A DNA stretch of 32,191 nucleotides, taken from assembly GCA_021204025.1 (NCBI GenBank), contig JAJQAC010000083.1, positions 1 through 32,191 on the forward strand, written 5' to 3'. A model generated the notes under the pieces. The model saw only the letters and a list, made by a program, of their open reading frames with translations. It had not been told where the DNA came from and made no database searches. The DNA is from Clostridiales bacterium (GTDB lineage: Bacteria; Bacillota; Clostridia; Lachnospirales; Lachnospiraceae). Shown here piece by piece: positions 353-31,852 of the stretch (within the stretch, counting starts at the first letter, position 1; every line of letters begins with the position of its first letter). The position numbers and the translations under genes are program-made.

Positions 353-447
353 CCCTCCGGGCGGGATCGCACTGCAGCGGAGTGGAATATGTCGCGAAAG
401 CGACCCGCCGCAGGCGGAGAATTTCGCTTTGCGGAATTCTTTGTTCC
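353..447 (-). repeat. Dispersed palindromic repeat, copy A
   Basis: Read on the minus strand, this segment aligns with 16498-16640 on the plus strand. One 27-nt block (421-447 versus 16498-16524) matches at 23 positions. A second block (364-395 versus 16602-16633) matches at 27 of 32. The shared ends contain a 9-bp-arm hairpin (GAATTTCGC/GCGGAATTC) and a GC-rich CCGCCGCAGGCGG segment. The middle differs: here a short GTCGCGAAAGCGAC hairpin, in copy B a long palindrome. It encodes nothing and looks like a small intergenic repeat family. Confidence 0.6.
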
Positions 448-485
448 AAATGTGTACAAATATTTACAATATGGAGGAGTGCAAT

Positions 486-1940
486 ATGAGCAATTCAACA
501 CAGACATCAGCAATCGACAGAATCACAGCATTGCTTGATGACAGCAGTTTCGTTGAAGTCGGTTCTTACGTTACGGCACGAAGCACGGATTTCAACCTGA
601 CTGACAGGGAGACTCCGGCAGATGGCGTAATCACCGGTTATGGTACCATCAACGGCTGTCTTGTGTATGTGTACAGCCAGAATGCCGCCGTACTCGGCGG
701 GTCTCTTGGCGAGATGCATGCAAAAAAGATTTCCAACGTTTATTTCATGGCGATCAAGATGGGAGCGCCGGTAGTCGGCCTGATCGACTGCGCGGGTTTA
801 CGTCTTCAGGAAGCTACGGATGCCCTGAACGGATTCGGACAGGTTTATTTCAGTCAGGCGATGGCCAGCGGCGTCGTTCCGCAGATCACAGCGATCTTTG
901 GTACCTGCGGCGGCGGTATGGCAGTGTCGGCGGCGATGGCAGACTTTATTTTTATGGAGAGTAAAAAGGCAAAATTATTTGTCAACGCGCCGAACGCGAT
1001 CGCGGGCAACCGGGCAGAAGTCTGTGATACTTCCAAAGCAGATTTCCAGAGCAAAGAAACCGGGCTGGTAGACTTTACCGGTACCGAGGATGAAGTCCTT
1101 GCGGGTATCCGTGAACTGATTTCCATTCTTCCGGCTAATAATGAGGATGATCTGTCTTATGATGAGTGTACCGATGATCTGAACCGCACGATTGCGGATA
1201 TGGCAAATTATGTGGGGGCATCAGATCTTGGTCTGGCTCAGATTTCCGATGACAATTTCTTTGTAGAAGTTAAGAAAGCCTATGCGCCGGAGATGGTGAC
1301 CGGTTTTATCCGCCTGAATGGCTGCACCGTCGGCTGTGTGGCGAACCGTACTGAGGAGTATGATGAGAACGGTGAGAAGAGCGCGGAGTATGAAGCGGCT
1401 CTTACGGCAAACGGCTGCGAGAAGGCTGCGAAGTTTGTTTCTTTCTGTGATGCGTTTAATATCCCGGTTCTGACGCTTGTGAATGTAAAGGGATATAAAG
1501 CATGCAAATGCACAGAGCGCAGAATCGCAAAGAGCGCAGGCCGCCTGACTTACGCTTATGCCAACGCAAGTGTTCCGAAGATCACTGTAGTTACGGGAAC
1601 CGCTTATGGTACGGCTTATCTGGTCATGGGAAGTAAGGCGCTGGGAGCCGATATCGTTTATGCATGGCCGGATGCGCAGATCGGCATGATGGACGCGCAG
1701 GCTGCCGCGAAGATTATGTATGCGGATGAGATTGACAAGGCTGATGACAGTGTGGCTCTGATTCATGAAAAAGCTGCCGCTTACAGCGAACTTCAGTCCA
1801 GCGCGATTTCCGCTGCAAAGAGAGGATATGTGGATGATATTATCGAAGCGGGCGACACTCGTAAGCGGGTGATTGCTGCTTTTGAGATGCTTTATACAAA
1901 GAGAGAGGATCGTCCGGACAGAAAACATGGCACGGTTTAG
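486..1940 (+). CDS. Acyl-CoA carboxyltransferase subunit (12S / MmdA-like) of a biotin-dependent decarboxylase
   Basis: The 484-residue product has the two-lobed crotonase fold arrangement of biotin-dependent carboxyltransferases: an N-lobe with YGTINGCLVYVYSQ and LGGSLGEMHAKKI (about 52-81) and a C-lobe with GTAYGTAYLVM and GADIVYAWP (371-395). In family members this subunit moves CO2 between an acyl-CoA such as methylmalonyl-CoA and carrier-bound biotin in the cytoplasm. Landmark loops are unusual. The usual SGGARIQEG-type oxyanion loop reads CAGLRLQE (102-109) and the usual DxPGFxPG loop reads VNVKGYKACKC (332-342), so the acyl-CoA substrate may differ from methylmalonyl-CoA. Start: an ATG at 429 is in frame, but ATG 486 has GGAGG 8 bp upstream and matches family N-termini. 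It is the first gene of a five-gene operon. Confidence 0.85.
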   Translation: MSNSTQTSAIDRITALLDDSSFVEVGSYVTARSTDFNLTDRETPADGVITGYGTINGCLVYVYSQNAAVLGGSLGEMHAKKISNVYFMAIKMGAPVVGLIDCAGLRLQEATDALNGFGQVYFSQAMASGVVPQITAIFGTCGGGMAVSAAMADFIFMESKKAKLFVNAPNAIAGNRAEVCDTSKADFQSKETGLVDFTGTEDEVLAGIRELISILPANNEDDLSYDECTDDLNRTIADMANYVGASDLGLAQISDDNFFVEVKKAYAPEMVTGFIRLNGCTVGCVANRTEEYDENGEKSAEYEAALTANGCEKAAKFVSFCDAFNIPVLTLVNVKGYKACKCTERRIAKSAGRLTYAYANASVPKITVVTGTAYGTAYLVMGSKALGADIVYAWPDAQIGMMDAQAAAKIMYADEIDKADDSVALIHEKAAAYSELQSSAISAAKRGYVDDIIEAGDTRKRVIAAFEMLYTKREDRPDRKHGTV

Positions 1941-1956
1941 AACGAGGTGACAGGGA

Positions 1957-2751
1957 ATGAAACAGAATATCAAACGATTTGTCGTATTATTAATGCTGAC
2001 AGTCTGCGTCTTTTCCATGACGGCCTGCGGTTCTAAGAACAATACTTCTGAGGTGGATATGCTGGATCCGCAGACGGCCAGCTATGTCTGCCAGGTGTCG
2101 GAGGACCTTCTGAGACAGATCTGCTCTTTTACAGAGGAGCAGGCGGTTCAGGTTGAGGCAGATCTGAGAAAAGAAAAGCAGACAGCTCTGGCGGACGGCG
2201 TTGCGGCCTGGGTGAATGTCATGGATGATACCGGAGCCTATATCGGCGCGATATCTTCTGAGACTACGCTGAATGAGGATGAGGAATATGTCTGTGTGAT
2301 TTATGCTCAGTATGCAAATCGCAACGTCGAATATAAGATCTTTTACACTCTGGACGATCAGAGTCTTGCTCCGGCAAGTATGACATTTTCTCCTGAGTAT
2401 ACCGTCGCTGAGAATATGACGAAGGCGGCGTTAAATACGCTGATGGGTATGGGGATTGTATTTGTAGTGCTTATTTTCTTAAGCCTGTTGATCAGTTGCT
2501 TCAAGTACATCCATATCGCGGAAGAAAAGATGCGTCAGAAAAAAGAGCCGGCCCCTGCGGCAGCGGCTCCCGCTCAGGCAGCGCCGATCGTTGCGGAAGA
2601 GCCTGCGGCAGAAGAAGAGGAACTTGTTGATGATCTGGAACTGGTAGCGGTCATTACCGCAGCAATTGCTGCCGCTGCCGATACTCCGGCGGACGGTCTG
2701 GTGGTTCGCTCCATCAGAAGAGCGTCAGCCGCAAAATGGAAAAGAGCCTAA
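1957..2751 (+). CDS. OadG/MmdD-like small membrane subunit with lipoprotein signal
   Basis: The 264-residue product begins with a lipoprotein signal peptide (lipobox MTAC, Cys24). An acidic extracytoplasmic region of about 130 residues follows, then one transmembrane helix around 161-185 (MGMGIVFVVLIFLSLLI, typical of the OadG family). It ends in an Ala/Pro/Glu-rich cytoplasmic tail. OadG/MmdD subunits stabilise the decarboxylase complex and tether the soluble carboxyltransferase and biotin carrier to the membrane pump. The gene starts 16 bp after the previous stop, with GAGG upstream. The N-terminal lipoprotein domain is an addition to the short OadG of Klebsiella. Its place between the carboxyltransferase and biotin carrier genes supports the assignment. 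Confidence 0.75.
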   Translation: MKQNIKRFVVLLMLTVCVFSMTACGSKNNTSEVDMLDPQTASYVCQVSEDLLRQICSFTEEQAVQVEADLRKEKQTALADGVAAWVNVMDDTGAYIGAISSETTLNEDEEYVCVIYAQYANRNVEYKIFYTLDDQSLAPASMTFSPEYTVAENMTKAALNTLMGMGIVFVVLIFLSLLISCFKYIHIAEEKMRQKKEPAPAAAAPAQAAPIVAEEPAAEEEELVDDLELVAVITAAIAAAADTPADGLVVRSIRRASAAKWKRA

Positions 2752-2772
2752 ACAAATCAGGAGGATGAAATC

Positions 2773-3150
2773 ATGAAAAATTATACAATTACTGTAAATG
2801 GTAATGTTTATGAAGTAACAGTAGAAGAAGGTATCACAGGCGCTGCAGCGGCAGCCCCGAAAGCAGCTCCCAAGGCGGCTCCGAAAGCGGCTCCTGCGGC
2901 AGCGCCGAAGGCAGCGGCTCCGACAGGTGCGGCAGGCGCGGTCAGCATCGTTTCCCCGATGCCGGGTAAGATCCTTTCTGTCAAGGTAAAAGCCGGTGAG
3001 GCAGTTAAGAAGGGTGATGTTCTGATGATTCTGGAAGCGATGAAGATGGAAAATGACATCGTTGCTCCTCAGGACGGAGCGATCGTAACGGTCAATGTTG
3101 CGGTAGGCGATTCCGTGGAGTCCGGAGCGACTCTTGCAACCATGAACTAA
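2773..3150 (+). CDS. Biotin carboxyl carrier protein (1.3S / MmdC-like)
   Basis: This 125-residue protein has a short N-terminal strand region (1-20), a flexible Ala/Pro/Lys linker (about 24-55, built from repeated APKA units), and a C-terminal biotinyl domain (57-125) with MPGKI and the biotinylation motif AMKM. The modified Lys would be residue 91, 34 residues from the C-terminus as is usual for such domains. It carries carboxybiotin between the carboxyltransferases and the membrane pump. It is preceded by AGGAGG and lies 21 bp after the OadG-like gene. No biotin ligase or biotin carboxylase is encoded in the window. Confidence 0.93.
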   Translation: MKNYTITVNGNVYEVTVEEGITGAAAAAPKAAPKAAPKAAPAAAPKAAAPTGAAGAVSIVSPMPGKILSVKVKAGEAVKKGDVLMILEAMKMENDIVAPQDGAIVTVNVAVGDSVESGATLATMN

Positions 3151-3197
3151 GATCGATCTGCTGAAATCATTTACAATATCCATATGGAGGGATAAAA

Positions 3198-4346
3198 ATG
3201 GATTATATTGCTACAACACTGGCGAATCTTGTTCAGCAGACAGCCTTTTGTAACCTGACGGTTGGCAACTTTATCATGATTATGGTAGCGTTTGTCTTTC
3301 TGTATCTGGCGATTGCGAAGGGCTTTGAACCGCTCCTTCTGGTTCCGATTGCGTTTGGTATGCTCCTGGTAAATATTTATCCGGACATCATGGCTTCTCC
3401 GGAAGAGACGTCGAACGGTACTGGCGGATTGCTGTATTATTTCTTTATGCTGGATGAATGGAGTATTCTTCCATCACTGATTTTCATGGGCGTCGGGGCG
3501 ATGACCGACTTTGGTCCGCTGATCGCGAATCCGATGAGCTTCCTGCTTGGAGCGGCGGCCCAGTTTGGTATCTATATGGCTTATTTTATGGCGATATTTA
3601 TGGGCTTCAATGATAAGGCGGCTGCGGCGATCTCGATCATCGGCGGTGCGGATGGCCCGACATCCATCTTCCTGGCCGGTAAGCTGGGTCAGACCGAGTT
3701 CATGGGACCGATCGCAGTGGCAGCGTATTCGTATATGGCGCTGGTTCCGATTATCCAGCCTCCGATTATGAAGCTGCTGATCTCCGAAGATGAGCGCAAG
3801 ATTAAGATGGAGCAGCTGCGTCCGGTATCCAAGCTGGAGAAGATTCTGTTCCCAATCATTGTTACCGTAGTTGTCTGTCTGATCCTTCCGACGACCGCGC
3901 CGTTAGTCGGTATGCTGATGCTCGGAAATCTCTTCCGTGAGTCCGGCGTGGTCAAGCAGCTCCAGGAAACGGCAAGCAATGCAATGATGTATATTGTTGT
4001 TATTCTGCTTGGTACTTCGGTAGGAGCGAATACCAGCGCGGAAGCTTTCTTAAAGGCAACAACCTTAAAGATTGTCGCTCTTGGTCTGATCGCGTTCGCT
4101 TTTGGTACGGCGGCCGGCTGTATCTTTGGCAAACTTATGTGCAAGGCGACCGGAGGTAAGGTCAATCCGCTGATTGGGTCAGCGGGCGTATCGGCAGTAC
4201 CGATGGCGGCCCGTGTTTCCCAGAAGGTGGGAGCGGAAGCTGACCCGACCAACTTCCTGCTGATGCACGCGATGGGACCGAATGTTGCCGGTGTCATCGG
4301 TACTGCGGTTGCTGCCGGTACATTTATGGCGATTTTCGGCGTATAA
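3198..4346 (+). CDS. Na+-translocating decarboxylase beta subunit (OadB/MmdB family)
   Basis: The 382-residue polytopic membrane protein carries the family hallmark [10 protein letters not shown] (149-158). Its Asp152 corresponds, from memory of the family, to the essential Na+/H+-linked Asp203 of Klebsiella OadB. Several hydrophobic segments flank it, and Gly-rich segments near the C-terminus ([31 protein letters not shown]) are also typical. The subunit decarboxylates carboxybiotin and couples that to Na+ export, conserving energy as a sodium gradient. The length matches the short gut-clostridial type. The ribosome site is TGGAGGGATAAAA before ATG 3198. Fourth gene of the operon. Confidence 0.93.
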
Positions 4347-4417
4347 GAAATGCTTATCACAGGGGCCAGATGTGTTTGACCCCGACATCTTGATCTATTA
4401 TTTAGGAGGAAAATAAA

Positions 4418-5827
4418 ATGGCAATAGAGAAAAAGCCGGTGAAAATCGTGGAAACCGTCCTTCGTGACGCCCATCAGTCTCTGATTGCGACCAGGATGAC
4501 CACGGAACAGATGCTTCCGATTATCGAGAAGATGGATAAGGTCGGCTATCACGCGGTGGAGTGCTGGGGCGGCGCAACGTTTGACGCCAGCCTTCGATTC
4601 CTGAAAGAGGATCCGTGGGACAGACTGAGAAAACTGAGAGCCGGATTTAAGAATACAAAGCTGCAGATGCTTTTCCGCGGACAGAACATTCTGGGTTATA
4701 ATCATTATGCGGATGATGTAGTGGAATATTTTGTTCAGAAATCTGTGGCAAACGGAATCGATATTATTCGTATTTTTGACTGCCTGAATGACCTGCGTAA
4801 TCTCCAGACTGCAGTGACGGCGGCAAATAAAGAAGGCGCTCATGCCCAGATCGCGTTAAGCTATACGCTGGGTGAGGCCTATACATTGGATTACTGGAAA
4901 GATATCGCGAAGAGAATCGAGGATATGGGAGCGAATTCTATCTGTATCAAGGATATGGCAGGTCTGCTGACCCCGTATGCGGCAGAGGAACTGGTGAGTG
5001 CGCTGAAAGAATCTACGCATCTGCCGATTGACCTGCACACTCATTATACCTCCGGCGTCGCTTCGATGACTTACTTAAAGGCTGTGGAGAGCGGCTGTGA
5101 TATCATCGACACCGCGATGTCCCCGTTTGCGCTGGGAACCAGCCAGCCGGCGACAGAGGTTATGGTTGAAACCTTCCGCGGCACTCCGTATGATACCGGA
5201 CTGGATCAGTCACTTCTCGCTGAGATCGCGGATTATTTTGCTCCGCTGCGTGAAGAGGCGTTAAAGAGCGGACTTCTGAATCCAAAGGTTCTGGGCGTTA
5301 ATATCAAGACCCTGCAGTATCAGGTGCCGGGTGGTATGCTGTCCAACCTGGTCAGCCAGCTCAAAGAGGCTGGTAAAGAGGATAAGTATCGTGAGGTGCT
5401 TGAGGAGATCCCGAGAGTGCGTAAGGATTTCGGCGAACCGCCGTTAGTAACCCCGTCTTCTCAGATCGTAGGTACACAGGCTGTTATGAACGTAATCTCC
5501 GGCGAGCGTTATAAACTGGTTCCGAAGGAATCCAAAAAGATCATGCTTGGTGAATTCGGACAGACGGTAAAACCGTTTAATCCGGAAGTTCAGAAAAAGA
5601 TCATCGGTGATGAGACTCCGATCACCTGCCGTCCGGCGGATCTGATCGAGCCGCAGCTTCCCAAATTCGAGAAGGAGTGTGCGCGCTGGAAACAGCAGGA
5701 TGAAGATGTGCTGTCTTACGCGCTGTTCCCGAAGGTTGCGGAGGAGTATTTCAAATACAGAGAAGCACAGCAGACAAAGGTAGATCCGACCGAGGCGGAT
5801 ACCGCGGATAAGGCTTATCCTGTCTGA
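4418..5827 (+). CDS. Pyruvate/oxaloacetate carboxyltransferase (5S / OadA-N / PycB-like)
   Basis: The 469-residue product has the DRE-TIM-metallolyase fold: VLRDAHQS (metal ligand Asp17), the metal/CO2-binding lysine in SICIKDMAGL (Lys178), and metal-binding His207 and His209 in DLHTHYTSG. The C-terminal conserved carboxylase region follows (LGVNIKTLQYQVPGGMLSN, about 295-315). It stops before any biotinyl domain, so it is the free-standing 5S type that uses the separate carrier at 2773. It exchanges CO2 between carboxybiotin and pyruvate/oxaloacetate. It follows the pump gene by 71 bp with AGGAGG upstream and ends at a hairpin terminator. Whether it works as oxaloacetate decarboxylase, transcarboxylase or both cannot be read from sequence. 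Confidence 0.9.
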   Translation: MAIEKKPVKIVETVLRDAHQSLIATRMTTEQMLPIIEKMDKVGYHAVECWGGATFDASLRFLKEDPWDRLRKLRAGFKNTKLQMLFRGQNILGYNHYADDVVEYFVQKSVANGIDIIRIFDCLNDLRNLQTAVTAANKEGAHAQIALSYTLGEAYTLDYWKDIAKRIEDMGANSICIKDMAGLLTPYAAEELVSALKESTHLPIDLHTHYTSGVASMTYLKAVESGCDIIDTAMSPFALGTSQPATEVMVETFRGTPYDTGLDQSLLAEIADYFAPLREEALKSGLLNPKVLGVNIKTLQYQVPGGMLSNLVSQLKEAGKEDKYREVLEEIPRVRKDFGEPPLVTPSSQIVGTQAVMNVISGERYKLVPKESKKIMLGEFGQTVKPFNPEVQKKIIGDETPITCRPADLIEPQLPKFEKECARWKQQDEDVLSYALFPKVAEEYFKYREAQQTKVDPTEADTADKAYPV

Positions 5828-9749: not shown

Positions 9750-10160
9750 ATGACATGGAGAATTGACTTTGAAAGCGACGAGGCGATTTATCTTCAGCTG
9801 CGTAATCAGATTATTATCGGGATTGCGTCCGACCGTATTCATGAAGGAGATTCCCTTCCTTCGGTACGGCAGCTGGCTGACAATATCGGGATTAATATGC
9901 ATACGGTAAATAAGGCATATTCCGTATTAAGACAGGAGGGCTTTATCAAACTGGACCGGCGCAGGGGCGCTGTGATTTCTCTTGATATTGAAAAAATATG
10001 CGCAATTCAGGAAATGCGCAAGGAGATGTATGTGATGCTGGCTCGCTGCATCTGTAAGCAGGTGAGTCGCGAGGAAGTACACGATCTGGTCGATGAAGTT
10101 TATGATTATTATATGACGATACAAGGGACAAAAGGTCATGAATCAGATGCCGGCATCTGA
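9750..10160 (+). CDS. GntR-family (YtrA-type) transcriptional regulator
   Basis: The 136-residue protein has the GntR winged helix at its N-terminus (about 8-75; EAIYLQLRNQIIIG, LPSVRQLADNIGINMHTVNKAY, RRGAVIS). Only a short helical C-terminus follows (about 80-128), which defines the YtrA subfamily of small dimerising regulators. YtrA regulators normally sit beside ABC transporter genes; none is here. The gene lies immediately upstream of mcsA-mcsB-clpC, the place usually taken by ctsR, and its own promoter could drive the whole group. The last eight codons run into a large palindrome (10135-10169), so the native C-terminus may have been altered by insertion of that element. The effector is unknown. 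Confidence 0.85.
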   Translation: MTWRIDFESDEAIYLQLRNQIIIGIASDRIHEGDSLPSVRQLADNIGINMHTVNKAYSVLRQEGFIKLDRRRGAVISLDIEKICAIQEMRKEMYVMLARCICKQVSREEVHDLVDEVYDYYMTIQGTKGHESDAGI

Positions 10161-10402: not shown

Positions 10403-10972
10403 ATGCTTTGTGAGCGATGCAAAATCAGAGAAGCAAATATTCAGTATACTGAGGTGATTGGCGGAGTAAAGACGGAACATCACTTCTGCGCACAGTGCGC
10501 GAAAGAACTGGATTTTGGTCCATATTCCGCGATCTTTGACACAGACTTCCCTTTGGGTAAACTTTTATCAGGGCTCCTGGGAGTCATGGGATCCGATGAG
10601 CAGGAGGAGAAGGAGACGCCTCAGATCGTCTGTCCGACCTGCAAAACGAGTTATGAGGAATTTATCAAGGACAGTCGTTTCGGATGTCCGGACTGTTATG
10701 GAGTTTTTGACCTGCTGATTACAGAAAATATGAAACAGCTTCAGGGAAGTGATACTCATAAGGGTAAGCGTCCGCGGGGACTGCAGAAGATCAAACCGGT
10801 ACCGGTCGTCGTTTCTGCCAGGGGTGCCGAGACCGCATCCGGTACAGATGCAGAGCAGATTCAGAGTTTTGAACAGAAATTAAAAGAGGCACTGAGACTG
10901 GAAGACTATGAAACGGCTGCCCGATGCCGGGATGAGATCCGAAGACTGAGAGAAGGAAGTGCGGCAGAATGA
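10403..10972 (+). CDS. mcsA: McsA-like zinc-finger / UVR-domain activator of McsB
   Basis: The 189-residue protein has two paired zinc-binding Cys motifs (CERC 3-6 with CAQC 29-32; CPTC 77-80 with CPDC 95-98). It ends in a C-terminal UVR motif (about 155-185; QKLKEALRLEDYETAARCRDEIRRL). In Bacillus McsA binds and stimulates the protein-arginine kinase McsB, and the UVR motif contacts partners such as ClpC. GGAGG lies 8 bp before ATG 10403. The stop overlaps the mcsB start (ATGA, 10969-10972), indicating translational coupling. All eight cysteines are present, so this partner looks intact even though the McsB next door is divergent. Confidence 0.9.
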   Translation: MLCERCKIREANIQYTEVIGGVKTEHHFCAQCAKELDFGPYSAIFDTDFPLGKLLSGLLGVMGSDEQEEKETPQIVCPTCKTSYEEFIKDSRFGCPDCYGVFDLLITENMKQLQGSDTHKGKRPRGLQKIKPVPVVVSARGAETASGTDAEQIQSFEQKLKEALRLEDYETAARCRDEIRRLREGSAAE

Positions 10973-12003
10973 AATGGTACGAATATGTAGACTCGGATCG
11001 TCCCGGAGTGATTTCCAGCAGGGTGCGGCTGGTGAGAAACCTGGACCACTGTGTTTTTCCCGCTAAACTATCCGTAAAGGAAAATGAAGAGATGATACGC
11101 CGTCTGGAATATGGACTGCAGGATATTGGTTCTGTTGACGGCAGAAATTATCAGTTTTCGATGCTGCAGGATATGAGCGACCTGGAACGAAAGTCTCTGA
11201 GAGAACGCCATGTGTTTAATTCAACAATTGCATCCCGCAAGTCGCCGGTAGGACTGATTCTGAGCGACACCGAAGACTGCGGCATTATATTAGGAGGAAC
11301 GGATCATATCCGGATTCAGATTCTCTCATCGGGACTCTGCCTGGAGAAGTTATGGGAAGATTGTGATAAAATGGATGATTATATCGGGGAACGGTTTCCA
11401 TATGCATTTGATGAAAAATATGGATATCTGACGTCTTTCCCCACCAATGTAGGTACGGGCCTGCGTGCGTCTGTGACGATCCATCTGCCAAATCTGTCCA
11501 AGGGAAAGAAATTTAGCGGTCTGACCGCGGAGATGGGACGTTTTGGAGCAAAAGTCTGGGGGATTTACGGAGAGGGAAACGAAAATTATGGTTCTCTTTA
11601 TGAAGTGTCGAATCAGAAAACACTTGGTCTGACGGAAAAGGAAATACTGGATCTGGTCAACCGTCTTGCTCTGCAGCTGCTTTCACAGGAAAATCAGGTG
11701 CGGAAACTGGCGTTGGAAAAGCATCGGTTAGAATGTGAGGATGAAGCGTATAAATCTTACGGGGTGCTGAAGTATGCGCGCCGGCTTTCTTCAAAAGATG
11801 CGATGGTCTTTCTGTCACAGCTGATGCAGGGAATCCATGATCATATTCTTGTCATGGAGGAGCCGTGTCCGGTGTACCGCCTGATGCTGGGGATCCAGCC
11901 GGCAAATCTTCAGAAGGATTCCAGCCGTCCGCTCAGCAAAGAAGAACTGGACGTGGAGCGTGCGGCTTACATCCGTGCAGCACTTCCGGATCTGAAACAA
12001 TAA
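10969..12003 (+). CDS. mcsB: McsB-like guanidino-kinase-fold protein, catalytic residues substituted
   Basis: The 344-residue protein aligns along its whole length with protein-arginine kinase McsB: SSRVRLVRNL (16-25), TDHIRIQ (111-117), PTNVGTGLRAS (158-168), GIYGEG (198-203), SNQKTLG (214-220), SYGVLKYARR (263-272). In Bacillus, McsB phosphorylates arginines to mark proteins for ClpC-ClpP. Several residues conserved in Bacillus and Clostridium McsB (from memory) are changed. NEEDHIRIQ reads GGTDHIRIQ (109-117), removing both Glu. CPTN reads FPTN (Phe157). VRG reads VWG (Trp197). The RDxxRA phosphoarginine-sensing motif reads LDVERA (327-332). Glu205 and Arg166 remain. It may therefore be a weak kinase or a pseudokinase adaptor. 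It overlaps mcsA by 4 nt and lies 18 bp before clpC. Confidence 0.88.
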   Translation: MKWYEYVDSDRPGVISSRVRLVRNLDHCVFPAKLSVKENEEMIRRLEYGLQDIGSVDGRNYQFSMLQDMSDLERKSLRERHVFNSTIASRKSPVGLILSDTEDCGIILGGTDHIRIQILSSGLCLEKLWEDCDKMDDYIGERFPYAFDEKYGYLTSFPTNVGTGLRASVTIHLPNLSKGKKFSGLTAEMGRFGAKVWGIYGEGNENYGSLYEVSNQKTLGLTEKEILDLVNRLALQLLSQENQVRKLALEKHRLECEDEAYKSYGVLKYARRLSSKDAMVFLSQLMQGIHDHILVMEEPCPVYRLMLGIQPANLQKDSSRPLSKEELDVERAAYIRAALPDLKQ

Positions 12004-12021: not shown

Positions 12022-14493
12022 ATGGTCGATCGATTTACCGAACAGGCCCGAGAGGCAATCCGGCTGGCAGTTGAGGCTGCCGGGGATCTGGGGCATAATT
12101 ATGTAGGGACAGAGCATCTCCTGCTGGGATTACTTCGTCAGGAGAGCGGCGTGGCCGCGCGAGTGCTGGATAATAATGGCGTTACAGCTGATCGGGTTCA
12201 GGATCTGGTGAGTCAGCTGATCTCGCCGAATCAGACAGTACGGACTGACGGCCCGACCACTTATACGCCAAGCGCTGCCCGTGTGCTCGACAACAGCTAT
12301 CGTGAAGCGGTGCGGTTCAAGGCACCGTTGATTGGTACGGAACATTTACTGATTTCGATGATCCGGGACAATGACTGCGTGGCGTCACGGTTATTAAATA
12401 CGCTGGGAATCAGCATTCAGAAGCTGTATGTGGAACTTCTGGCAGCCATGGGTGAGGATGCGCCGAAAAACAGAGAAGATTTTCAGCCGTTCCGCGGAGC
12501 AAAAAAAACATCGACGCCAACACTCGATAATTACAGCCGCGATCTGACTGCAATGGCGCGGGAGGATCGACTGGATCCGGTGATCGGGAGAGAATCCGAG
12601 ATCCAGCGTGTGATTCAGATTTTAAGCCGGAGAACCAAAAATAATCCCTGTCTGATTGGGGAGCCCGGAGTTGGTAAAACAGCAGTCGTTGAAGGTCTGG
12701 CTCAGCTGATTGCATCGGGTGAGGTGCCTGAGATCATCGCCGGCAAGCGTGTGATGACGCTGGATTTATCCGCGATGGTTGCCGGTTCCAAGTATCGCGG
12801 CGAATTTGAAGAAAGGATTAAGCGGGTCCTTGCGGAAGTAAAGGAGGACGGCGAGATTCTGCTTTTTATTGATGAGATCCATACGATTATCGGCGCCGGT
12901 GGAGCGGAGGGCGCGTTGGACGCGTCCAATATCCTGAAACCATCTCTGGCGCGCGGCGAGATCCAGTTGATCGGCGCTACGACGATTGACGAATATCGTA
13001 AGTATATTGAGAAAGATGCGGCGCTGGAACGCCGGTTTCAGTCCGTCATGGTGGAGGAACCGGGCGAAGAACATTCTATCAGCATTTTAAAGGGACTTCG
13101 TCCAAAATATGAGGCTCATCATAAGGTGACGATTACCGATGAGGCGTTAGTGGCTGCAGTTCGTCTGTCTGCCCGCTATATCAATGACCGCTTTTTGCCG
13201 GATAAGGCAATTGATCTGGTGGATGAGGCGGCTTCCAAGGTTCGTCTGACGACTTATGTCGAGCCATCGGAGATCCGGGAGCTGGAAGAAGAAATCGCTG
13301 ATCTGGAAAAGAACAAAGAGAACGCAATCCGTGAAGAAGAATATGAAAAGGCCGGTGAGATTAAGAAAGCTCAGCAGGAATGCCGCGAGAAGATTACTGA
13401 GATCCGCGAAAACTGGAAGAAGGAGAAAAATTCCCGCAAACTGGTTGTCGGTGAGAGTGAGATCGCGGATGTCGTGTCGGCGTGGACGCGGATACCGGTA
13501 CGAAAGCTGGAAGAAGAGGAGTCGGAACGTCTGAAACGTCTGGAACAGATTCTGCACGAGCGCGTGGTGGGGCAGGAGGAAGCAGTTACGGCTGTTTCCC
13601 GGGCGATCCGCAGGGGACGCGTCGGGCTCAAGGATCCGAAACGTCCGGTTGGTTCTTTCCTGTTCCTTGGTCCTACCGGTGTCGGTAAAACGGAACTCTG
13701 CAAAGCGCTTGCGGAGGCGATGTTCGGGACGGAAAGCGCATTGATCCGTGTTGATATGTCGGAATATATGGAGAAGCACAGCGTGTCCAAGATGATTGGT
13801 TCGCCGCCTGGTTATGTCGGTTATGAGGAAGGCGGGCAACTGAGTGAAAAGGTGCGCCGGAATCCATACTCGGTGATCCTTTTTGATGAAATTGAGAAAG
13901 CGCATCCGGATGTCTTTAATATCCTGCTGCAGGTGCTTGACGACGGCCATATCACGGACGCGCAGGGAAGAAAGATCGACTTTAAGAATACGATTCTCAT
14001 CATGACGTCCAATGCCGGAGCAGAAAATATTATTGCTCCGAAGCGGCTTGGATTTGCATCTAAGGATGATGAGAAAGAACGTTACCGCTTTATGAAGGAC
14101 CGTGTGATGGAGGAAACCAGACGGATCTTTAAACCGGAGTTTCTGAACCGGATCGACGAGGTTATGGTTTTCCATCCTCTGAATCAGGATCACATGAAGC
14201 AAATTGTTGAAATTATGCTGAACAGTATCATCAAGCGTACGATGCGTCAGATGAATATGAAGCTGGATGTGGAGGAAGCAGCGAAGGAATTCCTTGTGAC
14301 AAAGGGTTACGATGAGAAATATGGAGCAAGACCGCTCAGACGTGCGATCCAGAATTATCTGGAGGATGGTCTGGCGGAGGCGCTGCTTGACGGTAAAGTG
14401 CAGGCCGGCGATGAGGTCATGGTGACGCGGGCAGAAGATGGTCTGGCGTTCTCAAAACCCGAAAAAATGCCTGCGCTGGCAGAAACAAAATAA
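12022..14493 (+). CDS. clpC: ClpC-type Hsp100 AAA+ unfoldase
   Basis: The 823-residue protein has the full ClpC architecture. The N-domain with two Clp repeats occupies about 1-145 (FTEQAREAIRLA, GTEHLLLGLLRQ). AAA-1 has Walker A GEPGVGKT (213-220) and Walker B FIDE (282-285). The middle domain carries a UVR-like coiled coil (about 415-460). AAA-2 has Walker A GPTGVGKT (550-557), and a C-terminal domain follows. ClpC unfolds substrates and feeds them into ClpP; McsA/McsB normally act as adaptors and markers. AAGGAGG lies 11 bp before ATG 12022. It is the last gene of the mcsA-mcsB-clpC run. No clear terminator follows. Length and motifs look intact. Confidence 0.95.
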   Translation: MVDRFTEQAREAIRLAVEAAGDLGHNYVGTEHLLLGLLRQESGVAARVLDNNGVTADRVQDLVSQLISPNQTVRTDGPTTYTPSAARVLDNSYREAVRFKAPLIGTEHLLISMIRDNDCVASRLLNTLGISIQKLYVELLAAMGEDAPKNREDFQPFRGAKKTSTPTLDNYSRDLTAMAREDRLDPVIGRESEIQRVIQILSRRTKNNPCLIGEPGVGKTAVVEGLAQLIASGEVPEIIAGKRVMTLDLSAMVAGSKYRGEFEERIKRVLAEVKEDGEILLFIDEIHTIIGAGGAEGALDASNILKPSLARGEIQLIGATTIDEYRKYIEKDAALERRFQSVMVEEPGEEHSISILKGLRPKYEAHHKVTITDEALVAAVRLSARYINDRFLPDKAIDLVDEAASKVRLTTYVEPSEIRELEEEIADLEKNKENAIREEEYEKAGEIKKAQQECREKITEIRENWKKEKNSRKLVVGESEIADVVSAWTRIPVRKLEEEESERLKRLEQILHERVVGQEEAVTAVSRAIRRGRVGLKDPKRPVGSFLFLGPTGVGKTELCKALAEAMFGTESALIRVDMSEYMEKHSVSKMIGSPPGYVGYEEGGQLSEKVRRNPYSVILFDEIEKAHPDVFNILLQVLDDGHITDAQGRKIDFKNTILIMTSNAGAENIIAPKRLGFASKDDEKERYRFMKDRVMEETRRIFKPEFLNRIDEVMVFHPLNQDHMKQIVEIMLNSIIKRTMRQMNMKLDVEEAAKEFLVTKGYDEKYGARPLRRAIQNYLEDGLAEALLDGKVQAGDEVMVTRAEDGLAFSKPEKMPALAETK

Positions 14494-15090: not shown

Positions 15091-16461
15091 ATGGCAAAGG
15101 GTAAAATCACCGCTTTTTTCTGTAAGGAATGTGGATATGAATCTGCTAAATGGATGGGACAGTGTCCGGCATGCAGACAATGGAATACGATGGTGGAGGA
15201 ACCGGTTGTCAGAAAGGAGCCGTCGGCAAGAAAAACCGGCGGCTTTGGACTGTCAGTCGCGTCCAGACCGATGAAACTGTCAGAGGTCTCTCTCGATGAT
15301 GAGAAGCGTACGGGTACTGGTTTTACGGAACTGGATCGCGTACTGGGAGGCGGTCTGGTAGCCGGTTCTCTGATCCTTGTGGGAGGTGATCCCGGCATTG
15401 GCAAATCGACAATCCTTCTGCAGGTATGCCGGAATCTGGCAGAACAGAATCATAAGGTTCTCTATATTTCCGGCGAGGAATCCTTAAAGCAGATTAAGAT
15501 CCGGGCAAACCGGATCGGGATGGCGGGAGGCGACCTGTCATTTTTGTGTGAAACCAGCCTCGACCGGATTGAAGAGGTGATCCGGCAGGAAAAGCCGGAG
15601 ATTGCGATTATTGATTCGATTCAGACGATGTATCGTGAAGATGTGGCATCCGCGCCGGGCAGTGTCGGACAGGTGCGGGAATCTACCAATGTCCTGCTGC
15701 AGATCGCAAAAGGATGCGGCATTACCGTTTTTATCGTTGGACATGTGACGAAAGAGGGAGTTGTGGCCGGTCCGAAGGTGCTGGAGCATATGGTAGACAC
15801 CGTCCTTTATTTTGAAGGAGACCGTAACGATAATTACCGTATTCTGAGAAGCGTGAAAAACCGCTTTGGTTCGACCAATGAGATCGGCGTCTTTGAGATG
15901 AGAGAACAGGGACTGGTACAGGTGGAGAATCCATCCGAATATCTGCTCAGTGGTCGGCCGGAGGAGGCATCCGGAGCAGTGGTAGCCTGTTCGCTGGAAG
16001 GCACGCGGCCGATTCTGCTGGAGGTACAGGCACTGGTGACCCAGTCAAATTTTGGGATGCCGAGGCGGACAGCAGCCGGTACGGATTATAACCGTGTCAA
16101 TCTGCTGATGGCTGTGATGGAAAAACGCTGCCATCTGGCAATGTCCCGTTATGACGCATATGTAAATATCGCGGGTGGAATCAAGATGAACGAGCCGGCG
16201 CTGGATCTCGCGATCATCATGGCGTTGGTATCGAGCCTGAAAGATAAACCGGTAAATCCCAAATGCATGATATTCGGTGAGGTCGGTTTATCCGGTGAGG
16301 TGCGCGCAGTATCGATGGCAGAGCAGAGAGTGAATGAAGCAGTCAAAATGGGCTTTGAATATTGCATCCTGCCCAAAGTATGCCTGAGTAAGTGTAAAAA
16401 CGCGGATGGGATTGTGCTTTATGGAGTGAGTAATGTAAAAGAAGCAATTGGCGTGCTGTAA
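15091..16461 (+). CDS. radA: DNA repair protein RadA
   Basis: The 456-residue protein shows the canonical RadA/Sms order. An N-terminal zinc finger (CKEC 11-14, CPAC 25-28) is followed by a RecA-like ATPase with Walker A GGDPGIGKST (98-107). The RadA-specific KNRFG motif lies at 256-260, and a C-terminal Lon-protease-like domain covers about 285-456. RadA promotes branch migration during recombinational repair. The length equals that of typical bacterial RadA. The ribosome site is AAGGA before the ATG. It is convergent with the flavin oxidoreductase gene, and a palindromic repeat fills the gap between them. Confidence 0.96.
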   Translation: MAKGKITAFFCKECGYESAKWMGQCPACRQWNTMVEEPVVRKEPSARKTGGFGLSVASRPMKLSEVSLDDEKRTGTGFTELDRVLGGGLVAGSLILVGGDPGIGKSTILLQVCRNLAEQNHKVLYISGEESLKQIKIRANRIGMAGGDLSFLCETSLDRIEEVIRQEKPEIAIIDSIQTMYREDVASAPGSVGQVRESTNVLLQIAKGCGITVFIVGHVTKEGVVAGPKVLEHMVDTVLYFEGDRNDNYRILRSVKNRFGSTNEIGVFEMREQGLVQVENPSEYLLSGRPEEASGAVVACSLEGTRPILLEVQALVTQSNFGMPRRTAAGTDYNRVNLLMAVMEKRCHLAMSRYDAYVNIAGGIKMNEPALDLAIIMALVSSLKDKPVNPKCMIFGEVGLSGEVRAVSMAEQRVNEAVKMGFEYCILPKVCLSKCKNADGIVLYGVSNVKEAIGVL

Positions 16462-30238: not shown

Positions 30239-31852
30239 ATGGGATATTATTTAAACAGTAATAAGATGTTTTCTCTTTATAAAAGCGAAGTAGACAGTCC
30301 GTATTTTGTTGACAAAACGATGCTTTTGACAGAACTGATTCCACTCGTTGAATCTGGCAATAAACACATTTGCATTACCAGACCGCGACGCTTTGGAAAA
30401 TCTGTGATGGCGGCAATGATCGGAGCCTTCTTTAGCAGAGGGGGTGAAAGTAGCTGTATTTTTGATTCATTGAAAATATCCCTCAATGAAAAGTATCGAG
30501 ATCATTTAAATCACCACGATGTCATTTATATCGATTTTAGCGAAGCAGCAAATATCAGTGATAATTATCAGGATTTTATTGATTTTGTCACTGAAATTTT
30601 AAGGGAGGATTTACATGAGGCGTATCCAGACGTCAGTTTCTGGAAACATGGCGCTGTAGTGCAGGATTTGAGAAGAATTTATGAAAAGAAGAAAACCCCC
30701 TTTATCTTTGTGTTTGATGAATGGGATTGCATTTTTCATAAAAAATATACAACGTCAAAGAATAAAGAAAGTTTTATCAATTTTCTTGCAGCATTAACGA
30801 AAGGGACGGGATATGTTTCTCTGAGTTATATGACAGGGGTCCTTCCGATAGCGAAGTATTCAAGTGGTTCTACAATCAATCATTTTGTAGAATATACGAT
30901 GGCAGGGCAGCCAAAATACAGTGAATATTTTGGGTTTTCTGATGCGGAAGTTGATATGTTATATGCGCGTTATCTGAAAAATGAAAAGAAGCCGGCTGTC
31001 GGAAGAGAAGATTTGAAATTTTGGTACGACGGTTATTATACAGCGGGAGGAATCCGGTTATATAATCCTCGTTCGGTAGTACTGGCTTTAAGTAATAATT
31101 GTCTGGCAAGTTACTGGACGACAACAGGTCCATATTCAGAAATTTCTACGTATATTGTAGGCGATATAGACGGAGTAAAAAAGGATATTGCGCTGATGGC
31201 TGCAGGAGAGTCTGTGAAATCAAATGTTGAGGAATTTGCAGCCACGGCAATGCAACTTAGTACAAGGGATGAGATTTTCTCTGCAATGGTGGTTTATGGA
31301 TTCTTAAATTATGAAGATGGGAAAGTCCGTATTCCAAATAAAGAATTGATGGACGAGTTTGCTAAGACGATCCGAAAGGAAAAGAAACTCGGTTATATAT
31401 ACAATCTGGCAAATGCGTCAGAACGCATGATACAGGCGACGCTAACCGGCGATACCGTGACGATGGAAAAAATTCTGGAATATGCGCATAATACAGAGAC
31501 GCCACTTCTGGATTATAATAATGAGACAGAACTGACTGCGATTGTAAATCTTGTTTATCTGGCGGCAAGAGACAGTTATTATGTGGAACGCGAAGAAAAA
31601 GCTGGTAAAGGGTATGTGGATTTTATCTTTTATCCGGAAAGACGGGGGGATGATGGCATTATCCTAGAGTTGAAGGTCGATGATACGCCAGAGGAGGCAA
31701 TCCGTCAAATCAAGGACAGAAATTATGTACTCAGATTCCGTGGAAAGATGGGGGAACGGAAAGGCCATATTGGGCGAATTCTTCTGGTGGGGATTGGATA
31801 TGATAAAAAGAATAAAGATCATCATTGCAAAATAGAAATTCTGGAACAATGA
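30239..31852 (+). CDS. AAA-ATPase-like / PD-(D/E)XK nuclease family protein
   Basis: The 537-residue protein starts with the AAA-ATPase-like domain of this family (VDKTMLLTELI, degenerate Walker A RPRRFGKS with Lys54, FVFDEWDCIF as Walker-B-like). It ends in a PD-(D/E)XK nuclease-like domain with GYVDFIF (Asp461) and ILELKVD (Glu477, Lys479), followed by a conserved Gln (EEAIRQIKDRNY). All three nuclease-site residues are present. The family is abundant and often multicopy in gut Bacteroidetes and Lachnospiraceae, with no established function; mobile-element or defence roles have been suggested. It is visibly more A+T-rich than its neighbours, which hints at transfer. GGAGAGGA precedes ATG 30239. 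No partner gene is nearby. Confidence 0.88.
   Translation: MGYYLNSNKMFSLYKSEVDSPYFVDKTMLLTELIPLVESGNKHICITRPRRFGKSVMAAMIGAFFSRGGESSCIFDSLKISLNEKYRDHLNHHDVIYIDFSEAANISDNYQDFIDFVTEILREDLHEAYPDVSFWKHGAVVQDLRRIYEKKKTPFIFVFDEWDCIFHKKYTTSKNKESFINFLAALTKGTGYVSLSYMTGVLPIAKYSSGSTINHFVEYTMAGQPKYSEYFGFSDAEVDMLYARYLKNEKKPAVGREDLKFWYDGYYTAGGIRLYNPRSVVLALSNNCLASYWTTTGPYSEISTYIVGDIDGVKKDIALMAAGESVKSNVEEFAATAMQLSTRDEIFSAMVVYGFLNYEDGKVRIPNKELMDEFAKTIRKEKKLGYIYNLANASERMIQATLTGDTVTMEKILEYAHNTETPLLDYNNETELTAIVNLVYLAARDSYYVEREEKAGKGYVDFIFYPERRGDDGIILELKVDDTPEEAIRQIKDRNYVLRFRGKMGERKGHIGRILLVGIGYDKKNKDHHCKIEILEQ

Follow-up and report, generated by a model that had tools for sequence, protein, structure and literature searches.

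A conserved clade of Lachnospiraceae McsB proteins with substituted active sites, read as probable pseudokinases

McsB normally marks damaged bacterial proteins by arginine phosphorylation. In the protein arginine kinase McsB of Bacillus subtilis, exchange of R29, R31, R34, R125, R176, R207 or R337 for lysine abolishes the kinase signal, and exchange of R272 or R341, among others, leaves a weak signal that McsA does not stimulate (PMC7235348). The C167S mutant of the same protein is kinase-inactive and keeps its adaptor effect on MgsR, whose half-life is 12.3 min with C167S against 17.7 min in the deletion; deletion of clpC left the half-life of MgsR unchanged, and the authors suspect ClpX (PMC7235348). 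A function of McsB apart from phosphoarginine is argued there from this laboratory mutant (PMC7235348), and because MgsR is not stabilised by clpC deletion and ClpX is suspected, the effect lends no support to ClpC as such. In arginine kinase, Glu225, Glu314 and Cys271 hold and polarise the guanidinium group (PMC11075012), and in Staphylococcus aureus the binding of McsA orients the catalytic Cys157 of McsB (PMC12467219). Among the matches listed in our literature search, titles and the beginnings of abstracts mentioned no natural McsB pseudokinase, and we found no literature treating McsB together with Lachnospiraceae.

We analysed a window of 32,191 nucleotides (the whole stretch of DNA under study, to which all coordinates refer) from a Lachnospiraceae genome, in which an mcsB-like gene lies in an operon-like order of mcsA, mcsB and clpC, the 3' end of mcsA overlapping the start of mcsB (Table 1). 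A preliminary description, made from the letters alone, had called the protein full length and colinear with McsB and its mcsA and clpC neighbours apparently intact, and both statements hold: the mcsB frame has no internal stop, residues 3-339 of its product align with solved McsB proteins (phmmer E = 1.9e-63 to 8wtb and 2.1e-63 to 6tv6; PF00217 match, E = 1.3e-49), and mcsA and clpC are open frames with the expected domains. An AlphaFold model of the protein, built with 20 related sequences, has a mean pLDDT of 92.1 and matches both domains of McsB 6fh1 and of B. subtilis 6tv6 with a TM of 0.90, predicting the two-domain McsB fold over its full length. The protein falls short of the cut-offs of the NCBIfam McsB equivalog models (314.4 bits against 385 for NF002194, 290.3 against 500 for NF053707, with three more McsB models also below cut-off). 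The window's genome has one PF00217 gene in a 98.5% complete assembly, which ruled out a second canonical McsB there; this and other absences are somewhat doubtful, as the B. subtilis control genome matched LMWPc and MecA, yet no control matched PF00217. B. subtilis carries both a PF00217 gene and a CtsR gene, and CtsR was matched among the control genomes in Lactococcus lactis only, the B. subtilis control being silent, so that control seems to be incomplete.

Table 1. Coordinates of the mcsB-like gene, its diagnostic sites and its neighbours in the window
Feature	Position	Strand	Remarks
GntR-family gene	9750-10160		upstream of mcsB
mcsA-like gene	10403..10972	+	189 aa; two CxxC...CxxC zinc-finger motifs and a UVR motif
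mcsB-like gene, predicted pseudokinase	10969..12003	+	344 aa; ATG 10969, stop 12003
RVRLVRN	11020..11040	+	residues 18-24; equivalents of R29, R31 and R34 kept
GGTDH	11293..11307	+	residues 109-113; replaces NEEDH, both Glu gone
F157	11437..11439	+	at the place of the catalytic Cys (C167 in B. subtilis)
W197	11557..11559	+	at the R207 place; seen in this genome only
E202	11572..11574	+	lid Glu of GEG, kept
LDVERA	11947..11964	+	residues 327-332; replaces RDxxRA; L327 for R337, R331 for R341 kept
clpC	12022..14493	+	823 aa; both N-terminal-domain GTEH glutamates kept
RadA-like gene	15091-16461		downstream of mcsB; name read from its domains

Elsewhere in the window, the genes at 429-5827 look like those of a biotin-dependent Na+-pumping decarboxylase, with a carboxyltransferase, OAD gamma, a biotin carrier, OAD beta and a PYC/OADA subunit, and 30239-31852 encodes a predicted AAA-ATPase/PD-(D/E)XK nuclease protein (PF09820, PF08011).

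The substitutions listed in the preliminary description (GGTDH, F157, W197 and LDVERA) are all where it placed them. Window residues convert to B. subtilis numbering with an offset of 10 (F157 = C167, R115 = R125, R166 = R176, W197 = R207, L327 = R337, R331 = R341), and R18, R20 and R23 correspond to R29, R31 and R34. Neither NEEDH glutamate is present, the catalytic cysteine that corresponds to Cys157 of S. aureus McsB is a phenylalanine, and five of the six arginines essential in B. subtilis (R29, R31, R34, R125, R176 and R207) are kept, tryptophan standing at R207. We take Glu225 of arginine kinase to be the second glutamate of NEEDH, and E121 and E212 to be the McsB counterparts of the guanidinium-holding glutamates, which presumably correspond to T111 and E202 of the window protein. 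The RDxxRA phosphoarginine-receptor motif is also lost, which is weak evidence because 7 of 81 McsBs with both glutamates and the cysteine likewise have leucine at R337, a place that is not arginine in 16 of those 81 canonical rows. Loss of the autophosphorylation site R194 was considered as a sign of a dead kinase and set aside, arginine occurring there in just 12 of the 81.

Named genomes were scanned, and of 212 relatives the best 80 were kept; the clade alignment contains 80 rows (79 readable loci and the window, with L017/L064 excluded for an in-frame TAG). Among these rows, drawn from the best 80 of 212 relatives, the first NEEDH glutamate is kept in none and the second in one, R337 is kept in none, and the cysteine is kept in none (F in 61, Y in 19) at a site where the set is biased, one of the two scan patterns having required F or Y there. 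Members of the clade with altered McsB include Hungatella hathewayi DSM 13479, Lacrimispora species, Enterocloster bolteae, [Clostridium] asparagiforme and Brotaphodocola catenula. Within the genus, one PF00217 gene is present in each of 22 genomes out of 24, and all 21 full-length proteins are without both glutamates and the cysteine; the 22nd (genome G009) has the in-frame TAG, which may be a true loss or an assembly error, and was not counted. Judged from these alignments, the losses other than W197 are the mark of a Lachnospiraceae clade comprising Hungatella, Lacrimispora, Enterocloster and Brotaphodocola, and the idea that they are peculiar to this one genome was ruled out by the clade relatives that share them. 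W197 is unique to the window among genus and clade rows; the 98%-identical sister genome has arginine at its place (codon CGG, against TGG in the window).

PF00217 occurs in 44 of 200 genomes of the family, an unselected sample in which all 44 were typed; both glutamates and the cysteine are intact in 10, and at least one is missing in 34. Across the class Clostridia it occurs in 105 of 148 genomes, of which 15, the window's own included, were left untyped; the 90 typed McsBs, which include one from the window's own family, show xEEDH in 85 cases, the cysteine in 82 and both glutamates and the cysteine in 81. The claim that the sites of the window protein are substituted stands, and their loss exceeds what chance would give (85/90 and 82/90 retention in the class), with the correction that the losses are clade-wide and W197 alone has been seen in this genome only.

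An McsB tree of 62 rows, computed after removal of the active-site columns and with the root not inferred (L035, a partial second G086 locus, was excluded from tree and tables), separates 31 rows, the window's among them, from the rest by a branch supported at 97/90. Inside this group, L034 (genome G196) keeps NEEDH and has phenylalanine for the cysteine together with a lid-loop deletion; the other 30 rows (support 99/96) are all without the cysteine, and 29 of them lack both glutamates, L042 keeping the second. On this tree the cysteine seems to have been lost first, an order that rests on one row, L034. The genome of L034 also carries a broken YwlE (see below), and this locus may represent an early stage of site loss. 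Partial site losses occur outside the 31-row group as well (L040/L052, L037, L043, L026, L038, L166, L175/L176), and the whole-site state requires a minimum of 5 changes on the tree.

Such losses could in principle reflect neutral decay of a dispensable gene, given that PF00217 is absent from 156 of the 200 family genomes, which means that the gene can be lost, and that genus member G009 has the in-frame TAG; the pattern of substitution argues strongly the other way. Between the window and its sister genome (L053), dN/dS by the Nei-Gojobori method is 0.024 for mcsB (91 synonymous and 9 nonsynonymous differences), against 0.073 for mcsA and 0.030 for clpC, and the medians over 95 close pairs (of 149, those with dS between 0.05 and 1.5 in all three genes) are 0.082, 0.091 and 0.029, respectively. 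The mcsB gene is under strong purifying selection by the dN/dS comparison that the preliminary description had proposed. Gene order is conserved too: mcsA and clpC lie beside mcsB in 80 of 80 clade loci, the gap between mcsB and clpC is below 100 bases in 70, 100-500 in 8 and above 500 in 1, with a 4-base overlap in 1, and the largest gap between mcsA and mcsB is 2547 bases, the next 256. The eight zinc-finger cysteines of McsA are conserved at 0.99-1.00 in the clade alignment. With this dN/dS, a conserved fold and a conserved operon, neutral decay is very improbable, and pseudogene decay of the window gene was ruled out by the dN/dS value; the earlier judgement that the losses are not simple decay is thus borne out, and the combination that would have refuted the earlier reading, a second canonical mcsB beside a copy evolving neutrally, was looked for in the window's genome and neither part was found.

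Selection has not preserved all parts of the kinase equally. Among the clade rows, R31, R34 and H123 are each kept in 80 of 80, R125 in 79, R176 in 77, R29 in 69 and R207 in 62 (with lysine in 16), and the E202 place of the lid GEG holds Glu in 74 rows and Asp in the other 6. At least one of R29, R31, R34, R125, R176 and R207 is replaced in 28 of 80 clade rows, compared with 1 of 81 canonical rows, so that constraint at these six sites, as read from the alignment, is relaxed in some members of the clade; lysine stands at the R272-aligned position in 79 of 80 clade rows, and arginine in 81 of 81 canonical ones. That E202 and the ATP-site arginines are mostly kept, although a scaffold would have no need of them, is evidence against a mere scaffold, and the kept ATP site suggests that nucleotide binding still matters. 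These same residues could also serve a phosphotransferase with altered chemistry, in which the conserved ATP site would act on another acceptor and the Phe/Tyr, the Asp/Thr and the lid Asn would form a new pocket. Consistent with such a pocket, N206 is found in 80 of 80 clade rows (the place is alanine in 51 of 81 canonical rows) and 22 positions are near-invariant in the clade (at least 95%) and rare in canonical class rows (below 10%), though these positions may mark lineage rather than function. We give altered chemistry little weight, as the 28 rows are changed at arginines where lysine alone kills the B. subtilis kinase (PMC7235348) and the scanned genes of the window suggest no acceptor or partner enzyme.

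We then considered the YwlE phosphatase, the eraser of the system. LMW phosphatases were sought in 51 genomes, of which 46 had a match, and all matched places but one (a weak LMWPc match, G189:C53) were read. Among the 44 family genomes that have PF00217, 10 have an intact McsB, and 8 of these carry an intact YwlE, defined by a CxGNTCRS loop; of the 34 whose McsB is altered, 1 does (Fisher p = 2e-6). Broken homologues, which have SRGxVVLFxEP and a P-loop without its cysteine and/or arginine (CEDNTCQS, CSDNTCAS, CTENTYQS and SMNNTCMG among others), occur in 10 of these 44. Among 25 typed clade genomes, none has intact YwlE, 4 have a broken one (G030, G096, G118, G196) and 21 are without YwlE; these 21 have only a general phosphatase (CxGNICRS and similar), a match that we presume to be arsenate-reductase-like, or no match, and score at most 53 bits against the YwlE-group model, compared with 101-235 bits for YwlE-like proteins (SRGxVVLFxEP) in 19 genomes. 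In 11 genomes of clade members, each with one PF00217 gene, the best YwlE match reaches 48.5 bits, and the window's genome has no YwlE match. Across the class, 71 of the 81 genomes whose McsB is intact carry the CTGNTCR signature, as do 1 of the 9 whose McsB is altered (p = 5e-6 between these two groups) and 2 of the 43 that have no McsB; a control pattern was found 0 times in every genome.

The association is less firm once phylogeny is taken into account. With phylogenetic correction, the link between McsB and YwlE is not significant in either direction: 4 pairs on supported branches are on average 2.2 or 3.1 concordant, with almost none discordant, and the reverse direction gives 3 and 9 pairs, of which 1.8 and 2.3 are concordant. 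Exceptions also exist on both sides. McsB is intact but an intact YwlE is missing in genomes G066 and G090, the signature is missing from 10 of the 81 class genomes in which McsB is intact, and G189 combines an intact YwlE with an altered McsB in which Asp replaces the second Glu and Ser the Cys. Since some genomes with intact McsB are without intact YwlE or its signature, absence of YwlE alone is no proof that the kinase is absent. YwlE-like proteins are also present in many family genomes without McsB, and so have some other use there.

Apparent pseudophosphatases that keep SRGxVVLFxEP, or nearly so, and have lost the P-loop cysteine and/or arginine are found both in PF00217 genomes (L199, L201-L205, L209, L212-L214) and in genomes without PF00217 (L256, L259, L260, L262). 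A YwlE-like domain is fused behind a Sua5/YrdC threonylcarbamoyl-AMP synthase (PF01300, PF03481, PF01451) at L252:1498-3111 (-) and L265:442-1950 (+), and other open frames of 511-554 aa with a YwlE-like match may be the same fusion.

Absence of the eraser bears on a further alternative, that the proteins remain arginine kinases with residual activity, making some phosphoarginine by means of E202 and, in many members, an Asp in place of E121. Some activity survives in arginine-kinase mutants of Glu225, Asp stands at E121 in 49 of 80 clade rows, E202 is Glu or Asp in all 80, and genomes with intact McsB and no intact YwlE or signature (2/10 in the family, 10/81 in the class) do exist. The window protein, however, has Thr rather than Asp there, its Cys, R207 and R337 places are taken by Phe, Trp and Leu, its genome yields no YwlE match, and mutation of the cysteine, R207 or R337 inactivates B. 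subtilis McsB (PMC7235348), so we regard residual kinase activity as unlikely. As far as sequence can tell, loss of arginine kinase activity, which the preliminary description had raised, appears well supported by clade-wide loss of residues essential in B. subtilis together with the lack of intact YwlE, and the window protein most likely no longer makes phosphoarginine.

Loss of the phosphoarginine pockets of ClpC, considered as support for a dead McsB, was rejected: both GTEH glutamates, which we take to be the pocket residues E32 and E106, are kept in 79 of 79 rows. These pockets also help to hold the resting state of ClpC and bind MecA (PMC12583610), so their retention need not imply phosphoarginine. 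MecA, another ClpC adaptor, was found in 50 of 51 genomes, and a role of McsB as the sole ClpC adaptor was discarded on that count. CtsR was matched in 0 of 200 family genomes, the window's and those with canonical McsB included (the B. subtilis control being silent too), and since it is missing from canonical-McsB genomes as well, its absence does not discriminate.

With the guanidinium site and the regulatory arginine gone, the eraser gone or broken, and sequence, fold and gene order under selection, the window protein is best read as a pseudokinase, that is, a kinase homologue that has lost its catalytic residues and is maintained by selection. We consider it reasonably probable that it is a conserved pseudokinase that works with McsA and ClpC in a non-catalytic role. 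With the guanidinium-binding and -activating side chains lost (both NEEDH glutamates, and the cysteine by its change to phenylalanine), together with the regulatory R337, the protein would probably be unable to form phosphoarginine; as a partner of McsA and ClpC it would then deliver substrates to ClpC or set ClpC activity, with bound ATP perhaps serving as a conformational switch. A role as ClpC adaptor is plausible, by analogy with the C167S effect and from gene order, the step to ClpC itself being drawn from gene order. A pseudokinase could instead regulate McsA, hold ClpC inactive or serve another unfoldase such as ClpX, rather than deliver substrates to ClpC; in its favour are the conserved operon and the C167S effect on MgsR, which implicates ClpX (PMC7235348), but the position beside clpC favours ClpC, and we think this version rather doubtful.

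More tentatively, the phosphoarginine system of Lachnospiraceae may have been dismantled several times, writer McsB and eraser YwlE both turning into catalytically dead but conserved proteins and leaving a phosphoarginine-free McsA-McsB-ClpC targeting route in which the McsB ATP site is a nucleotide-sensing switch; this is a possibility that we raise without favouring it. Writer and eraser sites are, in any case, lost in the same lineages. For many gut bacteria, the annotation as protein arginine kinase probably misstates the activity, and because this natural clade of apparently dead McsBs has cultured members (Hungatella hathewayi, Lacrimispora, Enterocloster), direct tests are possible.

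Compared with the McsB of Bacillus, Geobacillus and Staphylococcus, the window protein shares fold, length, five of the six essential arginines and the mcsA and clpC neighbours, and differs in the missing NEEDH glutamates, in Phe for Cys, Leu for R337 and Trp for R207, and in a genome with no YwlE match and no CtsR match. Bacterial Ser/Thr pseudokinases have another kinase fold. They are likewise relatives of kinases with regulatory roles, described in a review that has McsB in its reference list (PMC12599244). Catalytic residues are likewise missing from the homologues of the eraser YwlE in 10 of the 44 family PF00217 genomes; the window's genome has no YwlE match. A further counterpart is the C167S laboratory mutant of B. 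subtilis, which has lost the same cysteine; its published adaptor effect concerns MgsR and is tied to ClpX, not ClpC (PMC7235348), whereas the loss in the window protein is natural, clade-wide and accompanied by further losses.
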